Shown piece after piece: positions 2,536 through 8,747 of a stretch of 57,310 nucleotides of DNA (positions within the stretch are counted from its first letter, which is position 1; each line of letters opens with the position of its first letter). The notes beneath the pieces were generated by a model. The model did no database searches. It saw only the letters and a program-made list of their open reading frames with translations, and had not been told where the DNA came from. Source of the DNA: Sphingomonadales bacterium Ga0077559 (GTDB lineage Bacteria > Pseudomonadota > Alphaproteobacteria > Sphingomonadales > Sphingomonadaceae); contig LNFK01000052.1 of assembly GCA_001464315.1 (NCBI GenBank), positions 1 to 57,310 on the forward strand, written 5' to 3'. Position numbers and translations under genes: made by a program.

Positions 2536-4353
2536 ATGACCGAACTCTCCCGTATCCGTAACTTCTCGATTATCGCGCATATCGACCATGGCAAATCGAC
2601 GCTCGCTGATCGGCTGATCCAGCAGACGGGTGGCCTGACAGCACGGGAGATGACCAGTCAAGTCCTTGATAATATGGATATTGAGAAAGAACGCGGGATT
2701 ACGATCAAGGCGCAAACCGTTCGCCTCGATTACACCGCGACCGATGGCGTCCTCTACGAACTCAACCTCATGGATACCCCCGGCCATGTCGACTTCGCCT
2801 ATGAAGTCTCGCGCTCCCTCGCCGCATGCGAAGGCGCATTGCTCGTGGTCGACGCGGCACAAGGCGTCGAGGCGCAAACGCTCGCGAATGTCTATCAGTC
2901 GATCGAGCACGACCATGAAATCGTCCCCGTTATCAACAAGATTGACCTCCCCGCCGCAGACGTCGACAAGGTCAAGGCTGAGATCGAGGAAATCATCGGG
3001 CTTCCCGCCGACAACGCCGTCCTCACCAGCGCCAAATCCGGCATCGGCATCGCCGAGGTGCTCGAGGCCATCGTCACCCGCATCCCCCCGCCAAAAGGCG
3101 ACCGCGACGCGCCGCTGAAGGCCATGCTAGTCGATTCATGGTACGACCCCTATCTCGGCGTCGTCATCCTGATCCGCGTGATCGACGGCGTCATCAAAAA
3201 GGGCCAGGAAATCCAGTTCATGGCCGCCGGCACAAAGCATCTGGTCGACCGCGTCGGATGCATGCGGCCCAAGCTTGAAATCCTCACCGAAATCGCGGCG
3301 GGCGAAGTCGGCATCATTACAGCCCAAATCAAGGAAGTTGCGCAAACCCGGGTCGGCGACACCATCACCGACGCCAAACGCCCCGCCGCGGAAGCCTTGC
3401 CCGGTTTCAAGGAAGTGCAGCCCGTGGTGTTCTGCGGCCTATTCCCCACCGACGCCGCCGACTTCGAGAAACTCCGCGAAAGCATCAGCAAGCTCCGCCT
3501 CAACGACGCCTCCTTCAGCTTTGAGACCGAAAGCAGCGCAGCATTGGGCTTCGGCTTCCGCTGCGGTTTCCTTGGGCTGCTCCACCTCGAAATCATTCAG
3601 GAACGCCTGACTCGCGAATTCGACCTCGACCTGATCACCACCGCGCCGTCGGTGGTCTACAAGTTGAAACTCAGCCGTTCGAAGACCGAAGACGCGCGCG
3701 ATATGGAACTGCACAACCCCGCCGACATGCCCGACATCAACCGCATCGCGGAAATTCAGGAGCCGTGGATTGAGGCGACGATTTACTGCCCCGACGAATA
3801 TCTGGGGTCGATCCTTAAACTATGCCAGGACCGGCGCGGCGTTCAGAAACAGCTGACCTATGTCGGCGGCCGCGCGCAGCTCGTCTACGAACTGCCGCTC
3901 AACGAAGTGGTGTTCGACTTTTACGACCGGTTAAAGAGCATATCGCGCGGTTATGCGTCGTTCGATTACCACCAGATCGGCCACCGCGAGGGCGACCTTG
4001 TGAAGATGAGTATCCTCGTCAACGGCGATCCCGTCGACGCGCTGAGCATGATCGTCCACCGCGGCACCGCAGAGGCCAGAGGCCGCGGCATGTGCGAGCG
4101 CCTGAAGGACCTGATCCCCCGCCATTTGTTCAAGATTCCCATCCAGGCAGCGATCGGCGGCAAGGTGATCGCCCGCGAAACCATCGCCGCGATGCGCAAG
4201 GACGTGACCGCGAAATGCTATGGCGGCGACATATCGCGCAAGAAGAAGCTGCTGGAAAAGCAGAAAAAGGGCAAGGCGCGGATGCGGGAGTATGGGAATG
4301 TGAGCATTCCGCAGGAGGCTTTCATCGCCGCGCTGCGGATGGGCGAGGAGTAA
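2536..4353 (+). CDS. lepA: Elongation factor 4 (LepA), translational GTPase
   Basis: LepA/EF4 is a ribosome-bound GTPase that acts on stalled or back-translocating ribosomes and in ribosome biogenesis. The 605-residue protein is the usual full length. The GTPase motifs are intact: AHIDHGKST (G1), the switch-I region with [21 protein letters not shown] (G3), NKIDLP (G4) and TSAKSG (G5). The C-terminal LepA-specific domain is present, ending with [20 protein letters not shown] and a tail close to the family norm. The ATG at 2536 gives the canonical start [20 protein letters not shown]. It stands alone, divergent from the DUF2945 gene. Confidence 0.98.
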
Positions 4354-4826
4354 TCTTTTTAATATGAAAATTGCAAGCCGACGTTAGATCCTATCGATCA
4401 GACCGCAGAGCTAATGCGCGTGCTGCAACGGATCGAGCTTCTGCATTTGGATATGATTTTGCTAAATCTAGCCAATGAATTGAGTTATAGTATCGATGCG
4501 TGTCGCGATCGATATGCCCTTGTTCAAGCTTAGTCATAGACACAAGTTGCGGCAAGGCCATCGGTAATAAGTACAATATGGACCACCCGCCCCCTACCGC
4601 CGTTGCCCCCTAACAAACCGCTTCCACTCAACCTCATCCGGCCCCGGCAGCAACGGGCCGTCGGGTGGCTCGCTGGTTTGTTCGACCTTAAAGTAACGCC
4701 GCTTCACGAACGCCGCGATATGTTCGTCCTCTTGTGACAGGCCCAATAATGGCCGGGCGCGAGTTCCGGGGACACAACGCTAAACAGGCTAGACTGCCTC
4801 TTCGCGTGCCCCCCGAACCCCAGTCC
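4354..4826. other. Intergenic region with two short gene-like remnants
   Basis: No complete gene is seen between lepA and the SDR gene. Two stretches have coding-like composition. On the plus strand 4369-4533 is open and reads LDPIDQTAELMRVLQRIELL followed by a helical segment, with its first ATG only at 4414. On the minus strand 4594-4779 is open without an ATG. Both look like decayed ends of lost genes. No tRNA, terminator or insertion-sequence end is visible. Confidence 0.4.
4594..4779 (-). pseudogene. Possible C-terminal gene remnant
   Basis: A 61-codon open stretch on the minus strand ends at TAG (4594-4596) and is bounded upstream by an in-frame stop at 4780-4782. It reads PGTRARPLLGLSQEDEHIAA and then FVKRRYFKVEQTSEPPDG, LLPGPDEVEWKRFVRGQRR. 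The codons are GC-rich at third positions, as in real genes here, but there is no ATG. The only possible starts are internal TTG codons with no ribosome binding site. I do not recognise the family. It is either a decayed gene end or a chance open frame. Confidence 0.25.
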
Positions 4827-5606
4827 TTATCTATACACCATGCCGCCATCGATGAGCGGGGCCTGTCCGGTCATATAGTCGGAGTCGGGTCCTGCCAGGA
4901 AGGAGACGAATGCAGCCACGTCTTCGGGAGTCTCCGCACGGCCCAGGGCGATGCCGTCCACATATTTCTTGTACGTTGCGCCGACCTCGGCTCCGGTGAG
5001 TTCTGCGAACCGTTTGTCGATTTCGGTCCACATGTCGGTGCCGACGACTCCGGGGCAATAGGCGTTGACGGTGATGCCATCACTGGCAAGCTCTTTTGCC
5101 GCCGCCTGGGTCAATGCCCGGACGGCAAATTTGGTCGCCGAATATAGTCCGAGCATGGCAAAGCCTTCATGGCCCGCAATCGACGATGCGCTGATGATCT
5201 TGCCCTTGACCTTGCGCGCCTTGAACTTTTTGGCAGCCGCCTGAATTCCCCACAGGACGCTCTGGATATTTATCTTCAGTATCCGATCGACCTCCTCCTG
5301 CGTTACCTCCTGCAGCGGCTGGACATTGGCGATGCCTGCATTGTTGACCATGATATCAAAGCCGCCGAGCTCTTTTTCCGCGTGATCAATCGCGGCATAG
5401 ACTTCGCTACGGTTCGACACATCGGCCCGGAAGTGGGTCGCCTTGCGGCCGATGGCTTCAACCGCCTGCGCCACGGTTTTCGCCTTGGCTTCATCAAGGT
5501 CGACAATGGAGATATCAGCGCCGTCTTTCGCCAGTCGAAGCGCAATCGCGCGGCCGATGCCCTGGCCTCCTCCGGTGATGAGAGCCACTTTTCCGTCGAT
5601 GGTCAT
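4827..5606 (-). CDS. Short-chain dehydrogenase, acetoin/2,3-butanediol reductase type
   Basis: A classical SDR of 259 residues. It has the NAD(P)-binding [11 protein letters not shown] motif at the N-terminus, NNAG (about residue 90), the catalytic Ser in [10 protein letters not shown] and the YSATK catalytic Tyr/Lys pair. The segments [34 protein letters not shown] and [20 protein letters not shown] closely resemble BudC/ButA-type acetoin(diacetyl) reductases, so the substrate may be acetoin or diacetyl; related SDRs differ in substrate. I place the start at the ATG at 5606 ([13 protein letters not shown]), which has GGAGAG 5 bases upstream, rather than the TTG at 5618. The ATG overlaps the stop of the small upstream ORF (ATGA), and an EcfG-type promoter lies about 40 bp upstream. 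Confidence 0.88.
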
Positions 5607-5830
5607 GCCGCTCTCCAATCAGGGTGCCAATGCGATAAACAACCAACGGGCTCCGCCACGCGAAGTTCCGCGACGAACTTCCATTCGGGGATATGGTGAG
5701 GGAACTTCTCCGCGTCGGCAAAGGGGAGCGGTGTCCACTCTTCTCTTGGGTACACGGTATCGTATGTTAGCCGCGCCGCCGCGCGCACTCGATGGTCGTG
5801 CTCCAGATGCTGCACGGCATTCTTCTTCAC
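5603..5830 (-). CDS. Small hypothetical protein overlapping the SDR start
   Basis: A 75-residue frame starting with GTG at 5830 (the track's M is a GTG) and ending in a TGA that overlaps the SDR ATG as ATGA. It reads [20 protein letters not shown], then [20 protein letters not shown] and [17 protein letters not shown]. It has many aromatic and proline residues and no membrane segment. I do not recognise the family. The stop/start overlap favours a real coupled gene. The EcfG-like promoter at 5645-5669 lies inside it, which would be unusual, so it may instead be a remnant. Confidence 0.4.
5645..5669 (-). promoter_or_regulatory. EcfG-type promoter before the SDR gene
   Basis: On the minus strand GGAAC (5665-5669) and CGTT (5645-5648) are spaced by 16 bases. 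The expected transcript start near 5638 leaves a leader of about 30 bases before the SDR ATG at 5606, with GGAGAG in place. The site would put this reductase under general stress control. Confidence 0.55.
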
Positions 5831-5892
5831 TTTTCGAATCCGGCGTGAAGGACAGGTGTTCTTATTATGTTCCGAAATCGGGTAAAAGCCAT

Positions 5893-6189
5893 CTAACGAA
5901 GCTTCTGCGCCTCGACCTCTCCGGTAACCGTGATGGTGACCGGAAAGCCTCCGATCTCCGATGGCACATGCGCCGCGACACCGGCGTCAGTTACGCCGAC
6001 CGAAATGGCATATCCGCCGGGGCCGCCCTGGCCGATGCCAACCGAAACAACGCCGGGGATGGCCATCAGCCGCGATTGCTCGGTTGCCAAAAGCTGTTCG
6101 ATAGACGATCGCGGCTGTGTTTCGTCCGGTTTATATTCGACTGGTCCCGACCCAGAAAAATCGGGGCCCGGCTTCCCTTGCTCGCTCAT
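5893..6189 (-). CDS. Small protein resembling the Nal1-type N-terminal domain
   Basis: A 98-residue protein starting at an ATG with AAGGAGA 8 bases upstream. After a disordered, proline-rich start (MSEQGKPGPDFSGSGPVEYK) comes a compact domain: AIPGVVSVGIGQGGPGGYAI, SVGVTDAGVAAHVPSEIGGF and PVTITVTGEVEAQKLR. The order (VVSVGIG, a short hydrophobic strand, a P..I.G/PV turn, then a VxGxVEA strand) matches the segment before the protease domain of the gene 72 bp upstream (GIVGVGIG ... VLVIHTES ... RVVGIVEA). I infer that it is a free-standing copy of that domain, possibly an inhibitor, chaperone or targeting partner of the protease. Both genes face the same way and are probably cotranscribed. Confidence 0.65.
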   Translation of the reverse strand: MSEQGKPGPDFSGSGPVEYKPDETQPRSSIEQLLATEQSRLMAIPGVVSVGIGQGGPGGYAISVGVTDAGVAAHVPSEIGGFPVTITVTGEVEAQKLR

Positions 6190-6261
6190 CGTTCAATCTC
6201 CTTCGCACCGCCGGGATGTAAGAAATCGGCCGCAAAGTTTAAAGGGAAGCCGGGCATCTTG

Positions 6262-7446
6262 TTACGGCAGCAGCCGGATGTTGAGCGCCGACAGCACCGA
6301 ACCGATGGGGTTGGCGTAAGTCGTGCCGCCGCCGCCTGCGAACAGCAAGCCGACAGGCCGCACCCCGGTTGCCCAGTGCCAGATGAGCGAGCCCGAGTCC
6401 CCGCCCGCCGAGAACGGGTTGTTGTTGACCGAACGGATCGCAATCTGGTTTCGGAAATGGGCGACCCCGATGCCGGGGAAGCTGACGTTCACGATCATCC
6501 CGAACTCGGTTATACGGCCCTGAGTAAGCCCCGTGGTGCGGCCGCTCTTGCCGACGGTCAGGCCGAGCGAGGGAGGAAGCGGCGCAGTACCGGTGCGGTA
6601 ATATGCACCGCGGCCGCCCGACAGATAATATTGCTCGCCGCGGATCCGGTCGTGCCAGGCCCAGCCGAACGCCGCATCGACAAAATTGGGTGCGCCGCCA
6701 AAGGCGATCGGCACCCAGCGCGCCAGTACGGCAATCTGGTCGGCGGGGTGCCTGCCTCCGTCATAAGCGCCTGGCTGGATGATGCTGTCGTTGACCCGGC
6801 CCCGGTTGGAGTTTGCCAGCACATGGTTGTTGCTAAGGATCAGGTGCCGGTTGTTCCACGGCGCGGTCAGGCCGATGGCACGGCTGCCGAGCGTTCCCGC
6901 TGTGACCGCGACATGGCCCACCGATACCCCGCCGGGTGCGGGCCGATGCCGGGCGCGGTGCGAATAGGCTTCGACGATGCCGACCACGCGCTGCTGCACC
7001 GCAAGCGTGGACAGCGCACTCGTCCCGGCCGATTGCGCGAGCTGCGCCATCAACGCCTCTTGCGGCATTGCGCTTTCGGTGTGGATGACCAGCACCGGTT
7101 CGCCTGGCGCACCCATGTTGAAGCCGGGTTCGCTCGGGTCGGCAAGGCCGATGCCGACACCGACAATGCCGCCCGTCGATTGCGTTTCGGAAAGTACCGA
7201 ATATTCGCCGGTGGCCGCGAGCAACGAATCGCCGACCGCATCGCGGAGCGCGAGCAGATCGTCCGACACACCCGCCTCGGCGAACACGGCCTCCTGCTCT
7301 GCTTCATAACCCAATGCCTCAAGCCCGGCGGAATCGGCATCGGGATTTTCGGGATTTCCAGACGATGACGCGCCGCCGACCGGCCCGCCTTCGTTTTCCT
7401 CGCCCGGATTGTCCACTTGCGAGCTCGATTTATCTTTACCTGCCAT
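6262..7446 (-). CDS. Nal1-like trypsin-fold serine protease
   Basis: A 394-residue protein. The start is the ATG at 7446 (MAGKDKSSSQVDNPGEENEG), with GAGGAGG 9 bases upstream, not the earlier in-frame ATG at 7470. Residues 1-60 are acidic and disordered. A small domain (GGIVGVGIGLADPSEPGF ... RVVGIVEA, about 90-160) precedes a trypsin-like domain. The apparent catalytic triad is His208 in ILSNNHVLAN, Asp257 in NFVDAAFG and Ser351 in SAGGDSGSLI. A VGKSGRTTGLTQG turn (about 298-310) is typical of Nal1-related peptidases. There is no signal peptide, so it is probably cytoplasmic. The small gene downstream repeats its N-terminal domain. Protease class is well supported; substrate unknown. Confidence 0.82.
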   Translation of the reverse strand: MAGKDKSSSQVDNPGEENEGGPVGGASSSGNPENPDADSAGLEALGYEAEQEAVFAEAGVSDDLLALRDAVGDSLLAATGEYSVLSETQSTGGIVGVGIGLADPSEPGFNMGAPGEPVLVIHTESAMPQEALMAQLAQSAGTSALSTLAVQQRVVGIVEAYSHRARHRPAPGGVSVGHVAVTAGTLGSRAIGLTAPWNNRHLILSNNHVLANSNRGRVNDSIIQPGAYDGGRHPADQIAVLARWVPIAFGGAPNFVDAAFGWAWHDRIRGEQYYLSGGRGAYYRTGTAPLPPSLGLTVGKSGRTTGLTQGRITEFGMIVNVSFPGIGVAHFRNQIAIRSVNNNPFSAGGDSGSLIWHWATGVRPVGLLFAGGGGTTYANPIGSVLSALNIRLLP

Positions 7447-7799
7447 GATAATGTCCTCCTCAATAAACATGATGAAACAGCGCGCGAAATATATGCGGGC
7501 GTTAATATCGATTGATTATTTATTGTTTTTTTGGCGACTCGGACATGATGAATTTAATATATTTTGGATTTAGACTCCAACGGTAATCACTTATTAACTA
7601 TAACTAAAAGTTAAGTTGCAGAATTATCGAAAATAATAATCAAAACAAAGATGTTGTAGTTAATATGCCCGCCGGTCGATTAAGTTGAAGCAAAGTCTTT
7701 ATTTCAAACACTTAAGCGCATGGGCGCGCGCTACCGTCATTATCGAGTTGCAATCGCCCTACCGGGTGAGACAATGGGATCGATCAAGGAGGGGACGGT
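7447..7799. other. AT-rich intergenic region between protease and hydrolase genes
   Basis: This divergent intergenic region must hold promoters for both flanking genes. From about 7500 to 7700 it is strikingly AT-rich (runs such as GATTATTTATTGTTTTTTT and AAAATAATAATCAAAAC) in a window that is otherwise clearly GC-rich. I see no gene and no clean EcfG or CtrA site. At 7785-7799 an AAGGAGGGGACGG ribosome binding site serves the TTG start at 7800. Confidence 0.6.
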
Positions 7800-8747
7800 T
7801 TGAGAAATATAGTGTTCGCCATTTTGCTGGCATCCGCGGCGGCGTCTTGCTCCACCCAGCATTCGCCCGGCCTGCCGCATCGACAAGGCGAGGCGTCGGT
7901 ACTAGAAGACGGCGCGGTGAACGAAGCACAACATATAAATCAACCAAAGCCAATCATGGTTTGGGACGACCTGCTCTCGCGGCCAAAGCCAGCGCCCGAT
8001 GCGACGATCACTTATGGCGCGGATGCTTTGCAATTGGTGGATGTCTGGAAGCCCAAGGGAACTGGCCCGCATCCGGCGGTGGTTATGATCCATGGCGGGT
8101 GCTGGCAGACCGAGGTCGCGACACGTGATATCATGAACTGGATCGCAGATGATTTGCGCGCGCGCGGTGTGGGTGTGTGGAATATCGAATATCGCGGGGT
8201 CGACCGGGGAGGTGGCTATCCGGGGACGTATCTCGATGTGGGTGCAGCGGCGGATATGTTTGCGGCGAAGCGCGGGGAGTATGGGTTTAAGGTTGGCGCG
8301 CCGGTGGTGGTGATCGGGCATTCGGCTGGCGGGCATCTGGCGCTGTGGCTGGCGCGGCGGGCTGGCTTGACGAAGGGGGATGCCTTGCGAGGGGAGAGGC
8401 CTTTGAAGGTGGATGTGGCGATATCGCAAGGCGGTCTGCCTGATCTGCGTGCGCAAATGACGCTGCCCGATCATGGTTGCGGCAACGAGGCGGCGGCGAA
8501 GATGGCTGGCGCGGAATTTGCGCGAACCTCTCCGCCAGAAATGCCCAAAGGGCGTGCGCGCGAGTTGCAGTTTAACAATGACCTCGACAGCATCGCGCCG
8601 CCGTCGTTCGGCGCGGCTTATGGTGCAGAGATGGTAACAACGCCGGGTGAAGGCCATGCCGAGCTAATCGCACCCGAGACGGTGTCTTGGGGCAAGCAGC
8701 GCGCGGTCATATTGAAGGCCTTTGGCCTAAAGGAACCAAAGACGTGA
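7800..8747 (+). CDS. Lipoprotein alpha/beta hydrolase, formamidase/esterase-like
   Basis: A 315-residue alpha/beta hydrolase. It starts at TTG 7800, supported by a strong AAGGAGG site just upstream. The N-terminus MRNIVFAILLASAAASCSTQ is a lipoprotein signal with a lipobox-like AAASC, so the enzyme is probably anchored in the envelope. The oxyanion motif is MIHGGCW, the nucleophile elbow is GHSAGGHLALWLARR, and a C-terminal GEGHAELI supplies the likely His. The HGG.W motif and gene order resemble N-formylkynurenine formamidases; the next gene is kynureninase, translated from a GTG overlapping this stop codon (GTGA). A formamidase role is therefore a reasonable inference, though the envelope location is odd for it. 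An internal ATG at 7956 (MVWDDLLSRP) would give a cytoplasmic form. Confidence 0.8.
   Translation: MRNIVFAILLASAAASCSTQHSPGLPHRQGEASVLEDGAVNEAQHINQPKPIMVWDDLLSRPKPAPDATITYGADALQLVDVWKPKGTGPHPAVVMIHGGCWQTEVATRDIMNWIADDLRARGVGVWNIEYRGVDRGGGYPGTYLDVGAAADMFAAKRGEYGFKVGAPVVVIGHSAGGHLALWLARRAGLTKGDALRGERPLKVDVAISQGGLPDLRAQMTLPDHGCGNEAAAKMAGAEFARTSPPEMPKGRARELQFNNDLDSIAPPSFGAAYGAEMVTTPGEGHAELIAPETVSWGKQRAVILKAFGLKEPKT

Follow-up and report, generated by a model that had tools for sequence, protein, structure and literature searches.

NARROW LEAF 1 (NAL1) of rice is known for its effects on leaves and grain yield, and has two Pfam domains, NAL1_N (PF25608) and Nal1_C (PF25819). In alpha-lytic protease, the pro/mature junction is positioned across the active site, and folding is accelerated by the pro region (PMC2829044); stand-alone propeptide-like inhibitors are represented by SUB1-ProM, whose gene adjoins protease genes (PMC6993865), and by crammer (PMC3551606); and the small proteins Trypco1 and Trypco2 are encoded beside trypsin-fold peptidases, with trypsin-NucA systems also described (PMC7159879). 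Here we describe a pair of genes in a 57,310-nucleotide stretch of DNA from Sphingomonadales bacterium Ga0077559 (contig LNFK01000052.1, positions 1 to 57,310; the window), in which a Nal1-like serine protease is followed by a small gene. This gene encodes a stand-alone NAL1_N domain, which in Nal1-like proteases is located ahead of the catalytic domain, and the pairing recurs across many bacterial phyla.

The original prediction gave the coordinates of the pair correctly and left the strand unstated; both genes are on the minus strand. The protease gene (6262..7446; ATG at 7446, stop at 6262) has the sequence GAGGAGG shortly 5′ of its ATG and encodes 394 residues, which the predicted model divides into a low-confidence N-terminus, a NAL1_N-like domain in cis (residues ~62-161; 6964..7263, minus strand) and a catalytic domain (~168-394). 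Relatives were sought across 84,980 species, each represented by a single genome, using an alignment of five proteases, and of the at least 575 confirmed, the best 80 by similarity to the window protease were kept; close relatives are therefore over-represented. The catalytic domain is of the NAL1 type, and its triad (H208/D257/S351), which had been described as intact-looking, is invariant in all 68 sequences of alignment A5, namely the window protein and 67 of the 80 kept relatives (13 were left out). The protease matches PHROG 20754 (E = 8.4e-39) and Pfam Nal1_C (E = 1.4e-5; 24.8 bits, slightly below the cut-off of 26.1), and the top match of its family profile in the PDB is NAL1 (E = 5.1e-11). 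A Foldseek search of viral structures returned two good whole-protein matches, the remainder being generic serine proteases. Neither window protein has a hydrophobic N-terminus when judged by eye, in keeping with the earlier statement that the protease lacks a signal peptide, and neither matched any family among the PADLOC models at E up to 1. The small gene (5893..6189; ATG at 6189, stop at 5893) is indeed a separate gene, 72 bp beyond the protease, and encodes 98 residues with the domain at ~25-95.

As a single-sequence query, the small protein was placed in no family. Searched against the open reading frames (ORFs) of the fetched loci, it picked up the small protein encoded next to the protease at dozens of loci, and also matched, weakly, the N-domains of several proteases. 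Compared directly by hhalign, the window small-protein subfamily and the N-domain of the window protease subfamily gave 39.0%, against 3.6% or less in 20 column shuffles and 0.1-0.2% for the catalytic region. Because this direct comparison is weak, we relied on comparisons across the wider family: the window small-protein subfamily against the N-domains of other Nal1-like proteases gave 97.6%, other free proteins against the N-domain of the window protease subfamily 93.0%, other free proteins against other cis domains 99.6%, and the cis domain of the window protease subfamily against other cis domains 94.2%. The likeness that had been noticed by eye is therefore real, and the profile match between the two segments that the original prediction had looked for is weak when made directly and strong (93.0-99.6%) through the family. 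The free-domain profile was seeded by sequence alone (50 phmmer matches plus the window small protein) and not by position. The 69 free proteins of the kept loci (alignment A4, E up to 1e-6; 70 with the window copy) have a conserved core and C-terminal end, and Pfam NAL1_N matches 14 of the 70 (best E = 7.3e-9) and 41 of the 68 proteases, with neither window copy among the matches. Structure prediction, another check proposed earlier, also brings the two together: the AlphaFold models have the same helix-strand-strand-helix-strand order, with helix 25-42, strands 47-54 and 60-66, helix 69-72 and strand 82-88 in the small protein (mean predicted local distance difference test score 72.5), and helix 62-82, strands 94-101 and 117-123, helix 129-140 and strand 150-154 in the protease N-domain. 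Family-level matches and element order thus both place a NAL1_N domain ahead of the catalytic domain of the window protease.

The pair is conserved, its co-occurrence in other genomes being a check that the original prediction had proposed. In 65 of the 80 best cellular relatives, the protease has a free NAL1_N gene no more than 300 bp away, downstream on the same strand in 48, upstream on the same strand in 14 and downstream on the opposite strand in 3; with the longest ORFs taken, 15 of the pairs overlap or abut. By phylum, the pair is present in Pseudomonadota (21/23), Actinomycetota (17/19), Chloroflexota (6/8), Bacteroidota (6/6), Planctomycetota (3/4), Cyanobacteriota (2/2), Calditrichota (2/2), Bacillota (2/3), Thermodesulfobacteriota (1/3), Acidobacteriota, Thermomicrobiota and Bathyarchaeota (1/1 each, the last being one archaeal metagenome-assembled genome, MAG) and relatives with no phylum given (2/3), and is absent from the kept loci of Omnitrophota (0/2), Lentisphaerota (0/1) and Myxococcota (0/1). 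Of the 15 relatives that lack the pair, L050, L060, L068 and L088 carry a free-domain ORF at a distance of 0.9-1.3 kb, one (L080) is an apparent fusion, and in another (L025) the sequence stops 219 bp past the protease. A protein of ~300 residues is encoded immediately downstream of the protease in L050, L068, L088 and L094, and in the first three of these the free NAL1_N ORF is ~1.0-1.3 kb downstream of the protease. Where the cis domain is unrecognisable, a free gene is present in 20 of 21 relatives, versus 45 of 59 otherwise (Fisher p = 0.10, with related rows), which is suggestive only of loss of the recognisable cis domain going along with a free gene.

In a less biased draw of 398 genomes of the window's phylum, five genomes other than the window's own had a protease match at E ≤ 1e-10; three of these (L151-L153) have the free gene, one (L150) has the cis domain only, and one (L154) has neither domain. 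Family relatives L006 and L007 gave no match to the free-gene profile. In 199 family genomes, the small protein matched, apart from its own genome, only L003 and L004, both weakly; we set these aside as probable chance matches. The protease was found in 13 plasmid records, and of five fetched, three pass the free-gene profile; the window small protein alone as query found nothing in plasmids, and candidate partners in Rhizobium leguminosarum (P0006) and a Clostridiaceae plasmid (P0008) failed the free-domain profile and were not counted. On Rhizobium plasmids L011 and L012, the protease and an opposite-strand free NAL1_N ORF adjoin radical S-adenosylmethionine and HEXXH peptide-modification genes, a modified-peptide-like setting. 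As single-sequence queries, neither window protein found a relative in viral contigs. Among 54 viral-contig relatives of the protease, a free ORF was flagged in 5, the cis domain only in 41, and neither in 8, and in all five loci with a free ORF the protease ORF has no detectable cis domain. On viral contigs L106, L118 and L135, a separate NAL1_N ORF is followed by a protease ORF in which no cis domain is detectable, which may be a split form or a broken gene.

The history of the domain bears on whether the small gene is simply a redundant copy of the protease N-domain that proximity alone has preserved. A tree of 151 NAL1_N domains (83 columns, many forks open) included 8 viral rows, a subset, and cis rows of the window subfamily whose domain had been delimited by motif. 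It requires 7 switches between "free" and "cis", of which well-supported branches force 3, versus ~50 in shuffles; thus the free copies are mostly an old lineage of their own, not fresh duplicates of the neighbouring domain. The low identity between a locus's own free and cis copies (median 33%, range 20-49%, 60 pairs) speaks for such a duplicate, but the free lineage persists through changes of gene order across phyla, and it retains its conserved core and C-terminal end. We therefore consider redundancy highly improbable. Two long branches, of 1.22 changes per column each, carry the clade of cis domains from the window subfamily and its kin, and therefore it is the cis copy that has drifted more than the free copy. 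In a Chloroflexota MAG (L080, 2004-3302), the protease carries a second NAL1_N domain (355-432) at its C-terminus that clusters, with strong support, with the free copies of other Chloroflexota. Here the partner appears to have been fused in frame to its protease, with an assembly fault possible in this single MAG.

Domain identity, conserved linkage, the old separate lineage, the in-frame fusion and a fold likeness to the pro regions of S1E proteases all support a two-gene module made up of a Nal1-like protease and a dedicated free NAL1_N protein that acts in trans like a pro-domain, a proposal that we hold to be about evenly balanced between right and wrong. We infer that the free protein binds the protease and has an inhibitory or folding role. 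The free domain would dock on the protease and hold it inactive, or help its folding or assembly, until its displacement or degradation. The N-terminal copy within the protease would remain in cis as a structural domain, and in the window subfamily this copy has drifted far from the family consensus. The fold likeness comes from Foldseek, in which alpha-lytic protease pro regions occupy ranks 1-7 in the PDB for the small-protein model (probability 0.92-1.00, E 0.015-0.17, none reaching E 0.001); a second look with VIA-align placed residues 92-171 of rice NAL1 first. A profile comparison of NAL1_N with 28 S1E pro regions detected no sequence homology (hhalign, free 2.0%, cis 0.1%). The pro-domain idea of the original prediction accordingly gains some support from the likeness of fold, without detectable homology of sequence. 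More tentatively, and in our estimate probably not the case, NAL1_N would be a pro-region-like regulatory domain of an S1E-related protease family, and prokaryotes would have a pro-domain system split in two, with one copy staying in cis and an anciently separated copy, provided in trans by a gene next door, switching or folding the enzyme.

The same domain identity, together with the old separate lineage and the fusion, would also suit a structural or substrate-recruiting subunit of a protease oligomer, one that delivers or gates substrates and is neither inhibitor nor folding factor. Several NAL1 entries with six chains, and others with three, hint at an oligomer. However, this hint does not extend to the bacterial proteins, and the likeness of the free domain to pro regions points to the catalytic domain as its partner. 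A subunit of this kind seems to us unlikely.

The segment that carries the pair is accessory, as had been suspected from its position. In congeners G953 and G954 (loci L186 and L187), a short-chain dehydrogenase/reductase (SDR) gene, the pair and an AT-rich spacer (46% GC at 7500-7999) are missing as one block between lepA and a hydrolase gene, which there begins 255 and 103 bp, respectively, after lepA. Matches to these loci end at window positions 4352-4353 and restart at 7947-7954, and the ends of the blastn matches delimit a segment of ~3.6 kb (4354..7950). These two are the ones among 20 other genus genomes that have the hydrolase gene; the protease was not found in any of the 20, nor was the SDR gene found in other genus genomes at E ≤ 1e-60, and the protease occurs in 4 of 199 family genomes, its own included. 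The empty site and the missing SDR gene together mark SDR gene, pair and spacer as an accessory segment. The nine nearest proteases among the best 80 (L015-L023), 72-77% identical in the best segment, come from Achromobacter, Rhodovibrionaceae, Rhodospirillales, Acetobacteraceae, other alphaproteobacterial records and an Acidobacteria MAG, a scatter suggestive of horizontal transfer.

Some of the free partners weigh against a pro-domain-like role. A hydrophobic segment is present at the N-terminus of nine of the 69 free proteins (L026, L031, L033, L037, L042, L043, L058, L075, L076), four of them with a lipobox by pattern (L033, L037, L042, L058) and two with a lipobox-like end by eye (L075, L076), and such a segment is found in only two of the 80 proteases, L016 (in an upstream ORF extension) and L083. 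The two members of such a pair may come together elsewhere, or the free copy may act at the surface, and the role of the free domain could differ between lineages. Lipoprotein-like or secreted free proteins beside proteases without such N-termini would also fit an effector and its immunity protein, the protease attacking other cells or, under stress, the host that makes it, with protection of the producer by the free domain; the accessory and patchy locus would fit as well, as would the nuclease domains that some Nal1-like proteases have or are annotated with, compare the trypsin-NucA systems (PMC7159879). Neither a delivery domain nor a trafficking signal was seen in the window pair, however, and a search for a third gene recurring at most loci found none; the two largest neighbour clusters have members in 16 and 13 loci, the first consisting largely of opposite-strand ORFs that overlap the protease. 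An effector/immunity pair is, in our judgement, quite unlikely.

Between the two genes, a 14-bp perfect inverted repeat (6166..6255, minus strand) extends from just past the protease stop to codons 4-8 of the small gene, and the predicted RNA fold encloses the start of the small gene (-45.3 kcal/mol, z -4.4, equalled by none of 200 shuffles). The nine close relatives folded (L015-L023) each have a local stem-loop of different form and sequence soon after the protease stop, with z of -0.8 to -6.9 against mononucleotide shuffles. Such predicted structure would fit a tuning of the ratio of protease to small protein.

Taken as a whole, the original prediction is partly supported: it appears sound as regards the free N-domain copy, the conserved pair and the accessory locus, its pro-domain idea gains support from the fold, and the inhibitor or adaptor role that it suggested is putative. 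The recurrence of the pair across bacteria suggests that many Nal1-like proteases are regulated, or helped to fold, by a free domain of this kind. With only two genes, the pair provides a simple model in bacteria for the NAL1 N-terminal domain, and makes testable whether NAL1_N regulates or folds the protease and whether it can act in trans. A conserved partner of proteases that has no name as yet would, in addition, give a function hypothesis for many small "hypothetical" proteins. We found no description of a bacterial free NAL1_N protein in the literature, in a search whose coverage mostly excluded subscription papers.

Like Trypco1 and Trypco2, the small protein is encoded next to a trypsin-fold peptidase. 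Pfam, which presumably holds Trypco models, gave no Trypco match among the 70 free NAL1_N proteins at E up to 0.1. Nuclease-bearing Nal1-like proteases also occur: L007 (475-2385) has a C-terminal nuclease-like region, judged by eye, and no free NAL1_N gene, and plasmid matches H3, H5, H6, H7 and H9 are Nal1-like proteases annotated as DNA/RNA non-specific endonucleases. These resemble the trypsin-NucA systems (PMC7159879). Alpha-lytic protease and the S1E family offer the nearest solved catalytic fold after NAL1, and a pro region that the small protein resembles in fold. Unlike them, the window proteins have no secretion signal, the cis domain gives no sign of cleavage, the second copy of the domain has its own gene, and no sequence homology was detected. 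SUB1-ProM and crammer provide the analogy of a free copy of a protease propeptide; they belong with other protease clans, subtilisin and papain respectively, whereas the pairing described here spans many bacterial phyla. With rice NAL1 the window protease shares its domain plan, and the difference is that here an extra NAL1_N domain is encoded by the adjoining gene.
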